Shown here: piece after piece, positions 15,387 to 19,788 of the stretch | Layout: every line of letters starts with the position of its first letter | How positions within the stretch are numbered: the stretch's first letter is position 1 | Virus record (IMG/VR): IMGVR_UViG_3300021376_000324 | Coordinates: 1-24,841 of that record | Source of the DNA: a virus | DNA length: 24,841 nucleotides | Reading direction: 5' to 3' (one strand) | Made by a program: the position numbers and the translations under genes | The notes under the pieces: generated by a model | The model's database searches: none | Told to the model about the DNA's origin: nothing | What the model saw: only the letters and a program-made list of their open reading frames with translations

Positions 15387-15430
15387 TATTGTAGAACCAC
15401 CTCGCCGACGCGGCGACGGATACCAAAGGG
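15387..15430 (+). promoter_or_regulatory. Leader cassette 1: extended -10, hairpin, ribosome-binding segment
   Basis: TGG-TATTGT (15384-15392) is an extended -10 element. Hairpin TCGCCG-ACG-CGGCGA spans 15402-15416, starting about where transcription should start. Then TACCAAAGGGGTC precedes the GTG at 15438. The start codon is 51 bases after the first base of the -10 box. Three other copies of this layout occur at 16854, 17086 and 17727. Confidence 0.55.
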
Positions 15431-15437
15431 GTCCATC

Positions 15438-15602
15438 GTGAAAAACTATTACGTGACGTTTGAATACACACTTGAAGTTGAGGCGGACGACCAACAGCAG
15501 GCACACGATTTGGCCTGGTCAGACTGGATAAATAACTGGGGGACGGTTTCACCCGCCGATTTTGTTTCATCGGAACCAGAAGAGGAACGGGGTGCGGAAT
15601 GA
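15438..15602 (+). CDS. Small acidic hypothetical protein (54 aa)
   Basis: A 54-residue acidic protein beginning KNYYVTFEYTLEVEADDQQQ, with the pattern of short beta-alpha proteins (strand, strand, then an Ala-rich helix AHDLAWSDWINN) common in phages and plasmids. GTG at 15438 is chosen because AAAGGGG lies just upstream within leader cassette 1; the in-frame upstream region crosses the promoter. The stop overlaps the GP88-like gene as ATGA at 15599-15602. Function is unknown; it may be the first gene of a three-gene unit reaching 16755. Confidence 0.65.
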   Translation: MKNYYVTFEYTLEVEADDQQQAHDLAWSDWINNWGTVSPADFVSSEPEEERGAE

Positions 15603-16564
15603 GTCGCGCCTATCTGCCCACCTCGCCACTATCTGACCGGCCCATAAGGCTACGGATCAACACGGTGGCAGGCCCGTTACAACTACACGCCGACGCAAAG
15701 ACCGGCCCCCTAGCCTTTTGGAGAGATGACCGGCGGCCGGTAAGTGTCGTTCCCAACGCCTTCGCCCTTCCCGCTGGCCCCGTCGAGGGTGGCGGTACTT
15801 GCCCGCAACTGTCGCCGACGGCGTGCCGAGCGTGCTACGCGGTGCGGCTTGAGGTTGGCCCCTTCGATGACTTCGGGCGCGTGATCGCGCGCAACCTCGA
15901 CACGGTGCGCGGGTTGCGTGTGGCCGGTGGAAAGTACCTCACCGAGGCGTTAGGCGCGTTGGTTGATCGGTCGGCCGCGCTTCAGACTGCCGCGGGCGTG
16001 CGTGTGCCTTCCTTTCGCTGGTTCTCCTCGGGCGACATCTTCGCCCCGTGGCTGGCCGCGGCGGTGCGTGACGTACAGCGGGCGCGCCCGTCGGTGGCCT
16101 TTTGGGGCTATACGCGGTCGGTCAAGTACCTTCCGAACTTGCTCGGCCGGTCGGGCCTTCCCAAAAATGCGCGCTGGTTTGTGAGTGTTGACCCCGAAAA
16201 CGTCGCCACCCACGGCAAGGCCGCAGCGCGCTACGGCTTGCCCGTCGCCTACCTCGCGGCCAACTCGGCCGAGGCGGTCGAGCTGCGTGTCCGTGTCGAG
16301 GAGATGCGCGGCGAAGTGTGGGGCCGCGTGACGTGCCCCGCGGGCGGCGTGTGGGCCGGTGATGGCCTTGGCCCGTCGTATGTCTCCGGCCTCGATGGCC
16401 GCCGCGCTTCACTTGTGCGGGGTCACGTCGCTGGCGCGTGTGCGGCGTGTGGGGCGTGCCTTCCTGCGGGTGCGGTGCGCGACGTGGTTTTCCTCCGCCA
16501 CGGTGGCGCGGGTAGTGCCGAGACTTTTCAACGGCTTGAAGTGCGGCGGGCGGTGCGGGCGTGA
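15599..16564 (+). CDS. GP88-like cysteine-motif protein
   Basis: A 321-residue protein. Near residue 68 it has TCPQLSPTACRACYA (Cys68, Cys76, Cys79), in the middle RWFSSGDIFAPW and FWGYTRSVKYLPNLL, then WFVSVDPEN, and near the C-terminus CAACGAC (Cys281, 284, 287) followed by DVVFLRHG. This order (a CP...C..CYA cluster, an SGD motif, a YTRS motif, an S-x-D motif, a C-terminal Cys cluster and a final V.F..H) is what I recall for the phage GP88-type family, which has no settled function. The clustered cysteines suggest a metal or Fe-S site. It is G+C-rich in coding, like the rest of the island, and overlaps both neighbours (ATGA and GTGA). Confidence 0.6.
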   Translation: MSRAYLPTSPLSDRPIRLRINTVAGPLQLHADAKTGPLAFWRDDRRPVSVVPNAFALPAGPVEGGGTCPQLSPTACRACYAVRLEVGPFDDFGRVIARNLDTVRGLRVAGGKYLTEALGALVDRSAALQTAAGVRVPSFRWFSSGDIFAPWLAAAVRDVQRARPSVAFWGYTRSVKYLPNLLGRSGLPKNARWFVSVDPENVATHGKAAARYGLPVAYLAANSAEAVELRVRVEEMRGEVWGRVTCPAGGVWAGDGLGPSYVSGLDGRRASLVRGHVAGACAACGACLPAGAVRDVVFLRHGGAGSAETFQRLEVRRAVRA

Positions 16565-16755
16565 CCCCGCCGCCTACCCCGTGTGTGTGGTGCGGGCGGG
16601 TGGTCTACGCCGCGGGCGGCGGCGTGTGGGCCGTCGAGGGCGGCGGCGTCGAGGGCGGCGGCGTCGAGGGCGGCGGCGTCGAGTGTGCTGCGCACCCGCT
16701 GGGGCGTGGCCCGCACTTGCCCCGCCACACGATCACCCGCCGCGGCCCCGAGTAG
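16561..16755 (+). CDS. Small Gly-rich protein with CxxC and an internal repeat (64 aa)
   Basis: A 64-residue protein starting with GTG in a GTGA overlap. It begins TPPPTPCVWCGRVVY, so Cys8 and Cys11 form a CxxC knuckle; another Cys and His follow near residues 42-45 (VECAAH), which could complete a zinc site. Between them is a perfect five-residue repeat (GGGVE, three times) encoded by a 15-bp tandem repeat. The repeat probably varies in copy number between relatives. It ends the three-gene unit begun at 15438. Function is unknown, and the reality of this gene is less certain than that of its neighbours. Confidence 0.5.
   Translation: MTPPPTPCVWCGRVVYAAGGGVWAVEGGGVEGGGVEGGGVECAAHPLGRGPHLPRHTITRRGPE
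16633..16683 (+). repeat. 15-bp tandem repeat, 3.4 copies
   Basis: The unit GTCGAGGGCGGCGGC occurs three times exactly (16633-16677), then a partial GTCGAG. It is in frame with the 64-aa gene and adds the residues VEGGG per unit. Such repeats can expand by slippage without breaking the frame. Confidence 0.9.
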
Positions 16756-16853
16756 CCCGCACCCTTCACCCGTCCCCCCCTGTCTGCGTCGGTCTCCGCG
16801 CAACGTGGGGGCCGCTTTTGGGCGGTATCCCCCGCCGAGGCCGCTTCGCGGCG

Positions 16854-16902
16854 TATTTTGTCCCCGTCGGCCACAACGGCCGACCACTACCGAAAGGGTC
16901 AC
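16854..16902 (+). promoter_or_regulatory. Leader cassette 2: -10 box, hairpin, ribosome-binding segment
   Basis: TATTTT (16854-16859) is a -10-like box; the perfect 7-bp hairpin GTCGGCC-ACAAC-GGCCGAC is at 16866-16884; CTACCGAAAGGGTCAC is at 16887-16902, just before the ATG at 16905. Distance from -10 to start is 51 bases, as in cassette 1. The T-rich box also follows a small hairpin (GCCG-CTTCG-CGGC), so it could alternatively be the T tract of a terminator for the upstream unit. Confidence 0.5.
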
Positions 16903-16904
16903 AC

Positions 16905-17147
16905 ATGACAGACACGATTAGCCCCGCGTGCGGGACATTCTTGGGCGAGGCGCAAGCCTGCGAAGTTGCCGCCGTGGTCGCGGTCGAGACCGGCGCGCGG
17001 TACTTCGACGCTCGACCCGCCGAGACAACTTCGCCGCCGATCTTGGTGCTTTCGCTCGTGGTCACACTTGGGGCGTGTTTTCTGCTACTGTCGAAGGTGA
17101 CACGCCGCAACGGGCGGCGGGTCATCTACCGAAAGGGTCACCAATGA
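16905..17147 (+). CDS. Small predicted membrane protein (80 aa)
   Basis: An 80-residue protein. The N-terminal 45 residues are soluble-looking (SPACGTFLGEAQACEVAAVV and on); a hydrophobic segment LVLSLVVTLGACFLLL at about residues 48-63 could span the membrane once; a basic tail follows (KVTRRNGRRVIYRKGHQ), which would favour a cytoplasmic C-terminus. The last third is encoded by the same DNA as the next gene's promoter, hairpin and ribosome-binding segment, so the tail may be partly a by-product of that overlap. ATG at 16905 is chosen from leader cassette 2. The stop overlaps the next start as ATGA. Function is unknown. Confidence 0.5.
   Translation: MTDTISPACGTFLGEAQACEVAAVVAVETGARYFDARPAETTSPPILVLSLVVTLGACFLLLSKVTRRNGRRVIYRKGHQ
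17086..17141 (+). promoter_or_regulatory. Leader cassette 3: extended -10, hairpin, ribosome-binding segment
   Basis: TGC-TACTGT (17083-17091) is an extended -10 element. The hairpin GAC-A-CGCCG, loop CAACGGG, CGGCG-G-GTC occupies 17099-17123 (one mismatch), beginning seven bases after the -10 box. CTACCGAAAGGGTCAC follows at 17126-17141, identical in all 16 bases to cassette 2. The ATG is at 17144. Confidence 0.55.
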
Positions 17148-17620
17148 AGGAAAAAACAACACTTACGGGGGCCGCGGCCCTCGATCTTCTCACGATGGCG
17201 CGAACTTGGCCCGACCTAGAGTGGCGGTCGCCAACTTCCGCCGAAGTCTGGGCCTACGGGGGCGGCGAGATTCACGGCCTTCACGGCACGCAGGTCGAGC
17301 GCGTCGGCACGGGCCAGGACATCTACGACCTTCTCGACGACACATTCCACCTACTGTCGGGCGTGAGCGATCTCAGCGGCTTCGCGCTCGTCACATGGGG
17401 GTGGGCCGCGCCGGTCAACCCCGCGACAGGCGATCTCGACGGCGCGCCGAGTGAGAGCCCCGCCCGCCGCCGCGTGCGTCTATGCGTCTACGTCTCTAAC
17501 GCGGGCGTGTACTCGCGTCTCGCCTTCGAGGACTCGACCGAGGACGTGGACGACAACGGAGAAGCAACCGGCCCGCTCGCGGAAGCCTGCGCGGAAGTCT
17601 GGGCCATGCTGAACTCCTGA
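17144..17620 (+). CDS. Hypothetical protein of the accessory island (158 aa)
   Basis: A 158-residue acidic protein. Features: an N-terminal helix (AAALDLLTMARTW), a Gly/Thr strand region, and a C-terminal part with FALVTWGWAAPVNP, then SPARRRVRLCVYVSN and GVYSRLAFEDS. The 'GWAAPV...P..RRRVRL.V.V...G' pattern recalls uncharacterised actinobacterial phage and plasmid proteins; the basic RRRVRL strand is its most distinctive element. No enzyme motif is seen. ATG at 17144 is fixed by leader cassette 3; the longer in-frame extension is rejected. A strong terminator follows 23 bases after the stop, so it can be expressed as a single-gene unit. Confidence 0.65.
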   Translation: MKEKTTLTGAAALDLLTMARTWPDLEWRSPTSAEVWAYGGGEIHGLHGTQVERVGTGQDIYDLLDDTFHLLSGVSDLSGFALVTWGWAAPVNPATGDLDGAPSESPARRRVRLCVYVSNAGVYSRLAFEDSTEDVDDNGEATGPLAEACAEVWAMLNS

Positions 17621-17643
17621 CGCGAGCCCGCGACACCCGAGAG

Positions 17644-17676
17644 AAGACCCGCGCCACGGCGCGGGTCTTTTCTTTT
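17644..17676 (+). terminator. Rho-independent terminator
   Basis: An 11-12 bp stem (AAGACCCGCGC, loop CACG, GCGCGGGTCTT) is followed by TTCTTTT. It is a strong, textbook terminator placed after the 158-aa gene and before leader cassette 4. Confidence 0.92.
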
Positions 17677-17726
17677 GCCTGGACACCGCGCCGCGCTCAA
17701 TGTCTCACGGCCTCGCCCTTCGCGTG

Positions 17727-17777
17727 TATCATCAGACCTGGCGACGCACTTCGGCGCGCCACTAGCGAAAGGGTCAC
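17727..17777 (+). promoter_or_regulatory. Leader cassette 4: -10 box, hairpin, ribosome-binding segment
   Basis: TATCAT (17727-17732) is a -10 box. The hairpin TGGCG-(A)-CGC, loop ACTTCG, GCG-CGCCA covers 17739-17761 (eight pairs, one bulged A). CTAGCGAAAGGGTCAC at 17762-17777 differs from cassettes 2 and 3 at one base. The ATG is at 17781. Confidence 0.55.
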
Positions 17778-17780
17778 CCA

Positions 17781-18464
17781 ATGAAAGTCATCACCGTACG
17801 AAGCCACAAGGCCGGACAGGGGGCCACGGTTACCGCGTGCGCGCTTGCGCTCGCGGTCGAAGCCACCGGCCGGCGCGTCGCGCTCGCGACGAACGACGAC
17901 GACACGCTCGCGGTCTACGGAGTCGCGACAGGCGACGACCGCCTAAGCGTCGAAGTGAAGCAAGGGCTTCAAGTGTTTGACGCTTCCCGCCTCGGCGATC
18001 TCGACCCGCAAGGCCTAGCCGGCCTGGTGGGTCTGTCTGACGGCCCGCGCCGCCACCGCTTCGACGTTGTGATCACGGACCTACGGGACGCGACACCGAC
18101 GCGCGCAACACTCGCCGCCGTCGGCTTCACCGCGCCCGAGTCCGTCGAAGTAGTGCGGCCCTGCTATCTGGCCCTGCGTCGCTCGACGACCGCCGACAAC
18201 GCCGCGGCCGAGTCGCGCCAACATGTGGCGGTAATCCGCGAGGACGACCGCGCGCTCACCGTCGGCGACGTGAAAAGCGTCCTGCGCCCCGCGGGCGAAG
18301 TGATCGAGATTCCGCACGCCGCAGCCGTGGCGCGCACCGTGGACGCGGGGCTGCTCGCCCACCGGTTGCCGCGCGAGTTTGACGCGCTCGCCGCGTGGGC
18401 CGAGTCGGTGACGACGAGCGACGCGCGCAAGGGCCGCCGCACCGCGAAGAAGGTGACCAAGTGA
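17781..18464 (+). CDS. ParA/MinD-like protein with degenerate P-loop
   Basis: A 227-residue protein with the ParA/MinD start: beta-strand MKVITVRS, then a loop KAGQGATVTACALALAVEA (10-28) where KGGxGKT would be expected, then a helix and 'RRVALATNDD' as the next strand. Residues 94-103 (FDVVITDLRD) take the place of the Walker B strand, and 'VEVVRPCYLALRRS' resembles the later strand of the fold. The catalytic Lys of GKT is missing, so ATP use is doubtful. Related actinobacterial proteins with KGGQG-type loops occur, as I recall, in plasmids and conjugative elements. The C-terminus is basic. It is coupled to the next gene through a GTGA overlap. Confidence 0.62.
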   Translation: MKVITVRSHKAGQGATVTACALALAVEATGRRVALATNDDDTLAVYGVATGDDRLSVEVKQGLQVFDASRLGDLDPQGLAGLVGLSDGPRRHRFDVVITDLRDATPTRATLAAVGFTAPESVEVVRPCYLALRRSTTADNAAAESRQHVAVIREDDRALTVGDVKSVLRPAGEVIEIPHAAAVARTVDAGLLAHRLPREFDALAAWAESVTTSDARKGRRTAKKVTK

Positions 18465-19104: not shown

Positions 19105-19292
19105 GGCGACGCCGCCACCCGCCGACCGAAGTGGCCTCGGCCCCCACGACCGCGAGTGCCCAAGCCCGCACCCGCCCGCGCACGCACCCCCCCCGGCCCC
19201 GTGGGGGGACCCCGTGGGGTATTGTGTAGTTCCCATCCCCGTACGTTTGGGGTGCCCTGAGGGGGTGGTTGTCTGGGTTCCGGCTGTTACCG

Positions 19293-19334
19293 TTGTCCAC
19301 AGCGTCCTGTGGGAAAGTCTCGATGTTATCCACA
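19293..19334 (+). other. Pair of DnaA boxes (putative origin core)
   Basis: TTGTCCACA (19293-19301) and TTATCCACA (19326-19334) are both canonical DnaA boxes, in the same orientation. Each is followed by GCGTC, so the repeated element is TCCACAGCGTC. Their starts are 33 bp apart, close to three helical turns, so DnaA would bind one face. A degenerate inverted copy (CCTGTGGGA) lies between them at 19306-19314. Confidence 0.6.
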
Positions 19335-19788
19335 GCGTCACTTGTCGCGGTTCGTTCTGCGCCGGGGCCACCACATTGTCTCGAGTTGGTGTTTCTCCCG
19401 CCTTCGCTGCCGCTCAGTTGGGTTGCGCTGCGCACTTCGTTCCTTGTGCTTGCGCCTCACTTCGTTGCACGGGCAGACCGCGCCCCTTCCCCCCCAAGTT
19501 GATTAAGGCTCAACCCGTCAGATTCGGCGTCACTACCAGAAAGCCTTGTCCGTGCAGCGTCAATTCACACCTACCTGGCTGCCAGAGCCCGGATCACTCC
19601 CGTGGGCCACCTCTGTTGTGCTTGGCTCACAGGATGTCTCGCCTGTCATTCCCGGGTGGGTGCCGCAACAGATTCAGTAACAGCCAGGTTCTCGGACTGT
19701 CTGTTGGTGCCGAGAAACCCTATTTGACGCGCCTTCCCAGCTGGCTGCTGGGGTGGACGAGACGCAGGATACATCTGAGACTCAAAGG

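Follow-up and report, generated by a model that had tools for sequence, protein, structure and literature searches.

A repeated hairpin leader shared by unrelated, exchangeable genes in a group of related phages

Phage morons are cassettes that bring their own promoter and terminator. Cluster K mycobacteriophages carry a repeated start-associated sequence (SAS), a 13-bp consensus (GGGATAGGAGCCC) located before start codons, and in about half of the cases an inverted repeat lies upstream, giving the extended form (ESAS) (PMC3203893). The ESAS inverted repeats span 17 bp and have a sequence consensus, the authors' own test does not support RNA pairing, and Pope et al. favour a DNA-binding role for them (PMC3203893); a 2025 survey of 188 cluster K phages again handles SAS and ESAS as sequence motifs (PMC12699233). 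Stem-loops at the 5' end that stabilise mRNA are known from ompA and papA of E. coli and aprE of B. subtilis, and RppH and RNase E need single-stranded 5' ends, so that 5' secondary structure blocks both (PMC3997798). Here we analyse a 24,841-base phage contig from IMG/VR (the window, meaning the whole of this stretch), in which four genes are preceded by the same compact leader: a -10 promoter box, a G+C-rich hairpin close to the expected 5' end of the transcript, and a nearly constant ribosome-binding segment. At the level of sequence, the leaders of the window and of eight related phages show selection for pairing in the hairpin, and they stand ahead of unrelated genes that are exchanged as cassettes.

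The first-pass annotation had placed the four starts at 15438, 16905, 17144 and 17781, with 51, 51, 58 and 54 bases from -10 box to start codon, and boxes and starts do lie at these positions. All the hairpin arms it listed are present and pair (GTCGGCC/GGCCGAC, CGCCG(C)/(G)CGGCG, TCGCCG/CGGCGA and TGGCG/CGCCA). Its 16-base segment, CTACCGAAAGGGTCAC, matches copies 2 and 3 exactly and copy 4 with one mismatch; to the ribosome-binding consensus that it drew across all four copies, copy 1 (TACCAAAGGGGTCC) is only a loose fit. The features of the four leaders are listed below, the -10 boxes having been read directly and re-located by script.

15387–15392, plus strand: -10 box of leader 1, TATTGT
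15402–15416, plus strand: hairpin of leader 1, TCGCCG-acg-CGGCGA
15421–15433, plus strand: ribosome-binding segment of leader 1, TACCAAAGGGGTC, the most divergent of the four copies
15438–15602, plus strand: gene behind leader 1, 54 aa, weakly DpnD/PcfM-like
16840–16852, plus strand: terminator-like hairpin, with the -10 box of leader 2 in its T-rich tail
16854–16859, plus strand: -10 box of leader 2, TATTTT
16866–16884, plus strand: hairpin of leader 2, GTCGGCC-acaac-GGCCGAC
16887–16902, plus strand: ribosome-binding segment of leader 2, CTACCGAAAGGGTCAC
16905–17147, plus strand: gene behind leader 2 (TM80), 80 aa with a hydrophobic stretch, probably a membrane protein
17086–17091, plus strand: -10 box of leader 3, TACTGT, within TM80
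17103–17119, plus strand: core hairpin of leader 3, CGCCGC-aacgg-GCGGCG
17126–17141, plus strand: ribosome-binding segment of leader 3, CTACCGAAAGGGTCAC
17144–17620, plus strand: gene behind leader 3 (P158), 158 aa
17640–17673, plus strand: intrinsic terminator between P158 and leader 4
17727–17732, plus strand: -10 box of leader 4, TATCAT
17739–17761, plus strand: hairpin of leader 4, TGGCG-13 nt-CGCCA
17762–17777, plus strand: ribosome-binding segment of leader 4, CTAGCGAAAGGGTCAC
17781–18464, plus strand: gene behind leader 4, 227 aa, ParA/MinD-like NTPase with a degenerate P-loop

The recurrence of these four leaders is real and exceeds what chance would give. When the architecture is defined strictly, as TAnnnT followed 6–11 nt later by a stem of at least 5 bp, it is found at 3 of the 47 start-like codons of the window that are preceded by a Shine–Dalgarno (SD)-like sequence, which are exactly leaders 1–3, and at none of the 24 other window genes; across all the phages introduced below, 21 of 28 leaders have it, compared with 2.8% after segment shuffling. 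Taken singly, the hairpins of leaders 1–3 give shuffle p values of 0.013, 0 and 0 (300 shuffles). Leader 4 has the weakest hairpin of the window (5 bp with a 13-nt loop, p 0.07), and its orthologues in the related phages are clean.

Relatives of the phage were gathered by Blast of fetched contigs and by searches with terminase and GP88 alignments, and those with useful coverage were kept, giving eight further distinct phage contigs (L058/L061, L067 (=L045), L066, L065/L009, L037, L077/L015/L027, L063 and L064), of which L063 and L064 are lower in GC. Together with the window, the nine contigs contain 28 leaders, 26 of them with a hairpin; an absence of further leaders with paired arms had been named at the outset as evidence against a shared leader, and such leaders are found in the related phages. 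The main stem begins about 6–11 nt past the -10 box in 25 of the 26 (5–7 nt in the fifth leader of L077, depending on register), and its 3' end lies 22–31 nt ahead of the start codon.

Several lines of evidence indicate that pairing in the hairpin is under selection. Summed over the leaders, the folding energy from the -10 box to the ribosome-binding site is -330 kcal/mol, compared with -160 ± 12 kcal/mol in 1000 composition-preserving shuffles (z -14.6), and z is -12.3 with 18 representatives chosen to lower relatedness. MAFFT alignments of all leaders misaligned the stems, and pairs were therefore tallied on a model-based alignment and with an explicit parse of the stems. Since the model-based alignment is fitted to the structure and thus favours it, shuffled and slid controls were run on the identical alignment: the covariation score is 0.277, compared with 0.077 ± 0.021 after shuffling (reached by none of 500 shuffles) and 0.006–0.043 with the partner slid, while 90% of cells are paired and 18 cells have changed on both sides. 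Between the window and L058, leader 2 has four double changes among its six inner pairs and no broken pair; between L067 and L065, leader 4 has double changes in five of six pairs; and the ten leader pairs compared contain no single-sided stem change. L063 and L064 keep the hairpin as GTTGC/GCAAC beside a ribosome-binding site that reads AAGGAG instead of GAAAGGG, so the hairpin has outlasted the replacement of the adjoining segment. The shuffles, the covariation, the double changes and the stem parse thus bear out the original suggestion that structure, not sequence, is selected.

The region is 64–72% G+C and leader 3 lies within coding sequence, so that chance pairing in G+C-rich DNA or a coding constraint at the end of TM80 has to be weighed as an artefact; the composition-preserving shuffles, the slid-pair controls and the low-GC relatives leave it scarcely credible. 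The TM80 frame of the window runs through the ribosome-binding segment of leader 3 as the codons CGA AAG GGT CAC, but TM80 of L077 reads the segment in a different frame and the 71-aa TM80 of L066 and L067 stops ahead of it, which excludes coding constraint as the cause of leader 3.

The arms themselves, of 5–8 bp, have low sequence information over the 28 leaders, and both stems and loops vary in sequence and length, which argues against a sequence-specific protein acting on DNA or RNA. Operators usually take the form of inverted repeats close to the transcription start, and Pope et al. favoured DNA binding for ESAS (PMC3203893), so the repeat might be read as a DNA operator 3' of the promoter for a dimeric regulator; we regard this as very unlikely, because a shared operator needs conserved half-sites, whereas these arms change freely with compensation, include a few G-U pairs and show two or three pair types at stem positions. 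The neighbouring ribosome-binding segment, GAAAGGGTCAC, is almost invariant and is common to the leaders beyond what SD pairing needs, as would be expected if an RNA-binding protein of the phage or its host, or else an antisense RNA, acted on it or on the hairpin for joint control of the cassettes. Such control appears improbable, as a sequence-specific RNA binder is hard to see with stems and loops that vary so much, and a search of the window for an antisense complement of the segment gave no near-complement above chance.

Upstream of the hairpin, the alignment of the 28 leaders shows TAnnnT preceded by G at -13, by a TTTT run from about -20 to -17 and, farther out, by a weak AT at -39/-38; the T, A and T of the -10 box are invariant, partly since leaders were picked by this box. 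There is no TTGACA-type -35 element in the alignment and no sigma-70 hexamer pair at the leader sites. Cassettes are separated by strong A-stem-T terminators, whose U-tract abuts the next -10 box (TTTTCGTGTATCATC) in most of the cassettes folded from related phages; L058 is an exception, and in the window terminator and -10 box are about 50 bases apart.

The leader is shared by unrelated genes: in a blastp comparison at E 0.01, the proteins encoded after the 28 leaders sort into ten groups that show no similarity to one another. At the locus of leader 1, which lies 3' of one and the same leftward gene, leaders that are 72–89% identical precede a different, unrelated gene in each of four phages (window, L066, L065 and L077), and the fifth leader precedes three unrelated genes in L037, in L067/L066 and in L077. 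L066 differs from its close relative L067 in lacking exactly one cassette, that of the ParA-like gene; the flanks join in L066 within a 22-bp repeat (ACCGACCACCACCGAA) ahead of the terminator, and in L067 (1687–2483) direct repeats 775–778 bp apart exactly flank the cassette. Because every core phage other than L066 has the ParA-like gene, loss in L066 appears the simpler reading. The replacement of genes behind a kept leader and this one-cassette difference agree with the earlier proposal that the units behave as cassettes. They would also fit leaders that serve mainly as homology for recombination, with a phage RecT-type system, of which a RecT-like annealing protein is encoded in the window, swapping or deleting whole cassettes. 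We consider that purpose improbable, since recombination does not call for arms that keep their pairing as their letters change, and such change lowers homology; recombination between leaders is more likely a consequence than the purpose.

The ParA/MinD-like protein (17781–18464), kept in most phages of the group, has a P-loop that lacks the lysine of the usual GK(T/S); it reads KAGQGAT, and GGQGRT in relatives. The P158 family (17144–17620), with the motif VTWGWAAP, occurs in many aquatic phages, including other aquatic actinophages, and in metagenome-assembled genomes (MAGs) of Acidimicrobiia, a distribution that hints at exchange with the host. Since P158 relatives are present in Ilumatobacteraceae and Acidimicrobiaceae MAGs, these families are likely hosts of the phage group. 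The window further encodes, besides the RecT-like protein, a DNA methyltransferase, GP88, a WhiB-like protein, an Rv2179c-like 3'-5' exoribonuclease domain and a large terminase, and with this gene content the phage is probably actinobacterial. A search of bacterial genomes with the large terminase (TerL) found no relative, and plasmid relatives of GP88 or of the ParA-like protein were sought and none found.

A covariance model (R1) built from 12 leaders recovers held-out leaders in the same phages, at up to 47 bits. At E<=0.001 it finds nothing elsewhere in the records of these phages, and it detects no leaders in 407 kb around distant P158 relatives (aquatic phages) or in 222 kb of Acidimicrobiia MAG loci; unrelated contigs in which the same ribosome-binding string occurs reach no more than 28 bits, presumably via that string. 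With matches confined to related phages, the element is, as far as searched, a property of one phage clade. Exact-pattern scans of IMG/VR for the ribosome-binding segment returned 53 and 13 stretches, and those outside the related phages are scattered single matches with no leader-like hairpin upstream by eye; the segment alone is therefore not diagnostic. No Rfam 15 family matches the window leaders even at E<=1, and nothing in five relatives matches at the gathering threshold. In two distant phages, L090 (2090) and L097 (2090–5878), several genes are preceded by a -10 box and GAAAGGG together with a short TGG..CCA repeat with TGTCC. These were not counted as the same element, the repeat starting only 0–3 nt past the -10 box, being mostly not significant and falling partly upstream of the expected start; the arrangement is possibly a cousin.

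We think it rather likely that the leader protects the mRNA 5' end as part of a gene-independent expression module for swappable accessory genes. The stabilising stem-loops have this very layout, a hairpin at the expected start with a free ribosome-binding site after it, and for this reason 5'-end protection is favoured. The leader would act as one compact module, in which (i) a TAnnnT promoter, often beginning at the U-tract of the previous terminator, would start transcription; (ii) a short hairpin, with its first pair at about +1 to +4 of the expected transcript, would tie up the 5' end and so, most likely, keep out pyrophosphohydrolase and the 5'-end-dependent ribonucleases (RNase E/J), leaving the ribosome-binding site single-stranded; and (iii) the fixed SD segment follows, shortly ahead of the start codon. 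Short, rapidly exchanged accessory genes could thereby gain steady and similar expression at any insertion site. More tentatively, and with the balance somewhat against it, we propose that the phages have evolved a standard expression socket, in which terminator, promoter, hairpin and ribosome-binding site form a constant module and homologous recombination swaps the accessory genes that follow it. The hairpin would make expression gene-independent, and selection would act on the RNA structure of the socket while the genes turn over.

The main rival places the action of the hairpin in translation, as an insulator or standby structure: with the ribosome-binding site held unpaired whichever gene follows, swapped genes would be translated equally. 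The constant spacing from hairpin to start, the almost invariant ribosome-binding segment and the use of one leader with many unrelated genes all suit it, but the hairpin keeps its distance from the -10 box at least as constantly as its distance from the start codon, and two leaders without a hairpin, E2 (L065) and F5 (L037), presumably work. On this evidence a translational role seems unlikely as the principal one, and it may coexist with 5'-end protection.

Several observations weigh against 5'-end protection. E2 and F5 mean that the hairpin is not indispensable. The RNA 5' end is predicted from the -10 box. Leader 3 is embedded in the 3' end of the open reading frame before it (16905–17147, with an ATGA overlap), where translational coupling may operate too, and the GTCAC part 3' of the SD sequence is conserved with no obvious pairing role, which mRNA protection does not account for. 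To our knowledge, mRNA decay is unstudied in the likely host group, the Acidimicrobiia. If 5'-end protection is correct, the leader would be a natural, evolution-tested design for gene-independent expression. It also provides a marker by which accessory genes, possibly with roles in host takeover, can be found in actinophages that have not been cultured, and a convenient system in which to ask whether the mRNA of actinobacteria is protected by 5' hairpins.

The cassette array ends in non-coding DNA that is itself conserved. A long block occupies 19163–19762 of the window and recurs in L058 (2967–3590), L066 (5914–6560), L067 (3506–4110) and L037 (1916–2512); about 230 bases of it (19490–19720) are nearly identical between phages, while the neighbouring proteins are far more diverged. 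A minus-strand promoter sequence, TTGACA-17-TATCCT (19794–19766), precedes the block, and 7 of 88 predicted pairs show both-sided changes over five sequences; single-sequence folding is unexceptional (z -0.2) and Rfam gives no match. We regard the block as a candidate new phage non-coding RNA. Its first ~90 bases (19163–19251), kept in nearly all the phages including the low-GC ones, comprise two CCCCGTGGGG palindromes, a TATTGT box and then CCCGTACGTTTGGGG, and look like a strong shared promoter or regulatory element. DnaA-box-like TTGTCCACA and TTATCCACA at 19290–19340, adjoining the conserved block, mark a possible replication origin. At the same place, L077 (18550–19130), L063 (6580–7150) and L064 (1490–2060) carry another non-coding block, also conserved (AGCCGACACCTGTT...CCCCGTTTCCGGCC), as though one type of RNA or origin had taken the place of the other.

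The first-pass annotation knew of no described element with the design of these leaders; SAS/ESAS (PMC3203893) and 5'-stabilising stem-loops (PMC3997798) are described, but neither has this exact design. An earlier description may exist outside the open-access literature that was searched. SAS/ESAS is the nearest described element, likewise built on a nearly invariant, repeated ribosome-binding segment ahead of many unrelated actinobacterial-phage genes, with conserved letters beyond the SD sequence. Judged by the sequences, the leaders nevertheless depart from it in two defining features: their segment (CTACCGAAAGGGTCAC / GAAAGGGTCAC) differs from the SAS consensus, and in place of non-pairing repeats with a consensus they have arms of no fixed sequence that pair with compensation at a fixed distance from the -10 box. 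The leaders would resemble stem-loops of the ompA type in having the hairpin within a few nucleotides of the expected 5' end, ahead of an unpaired ribosome-binding site, and they do resemble them in that pairing rather than sequence matters, as the compensatory changes in the leaders indicate; the known cases, however, stand on single genes, whereas the leader design is repeated on many unrelated phage genes and moves in cassettes. With morons, these units would share the form of small accessory genes in self-contained transcription units, here with predicted promoters, that are individually gained and lost. We know of no common RNA leader among morons, whereas in these phages the leader stays while the gene behind it changes.

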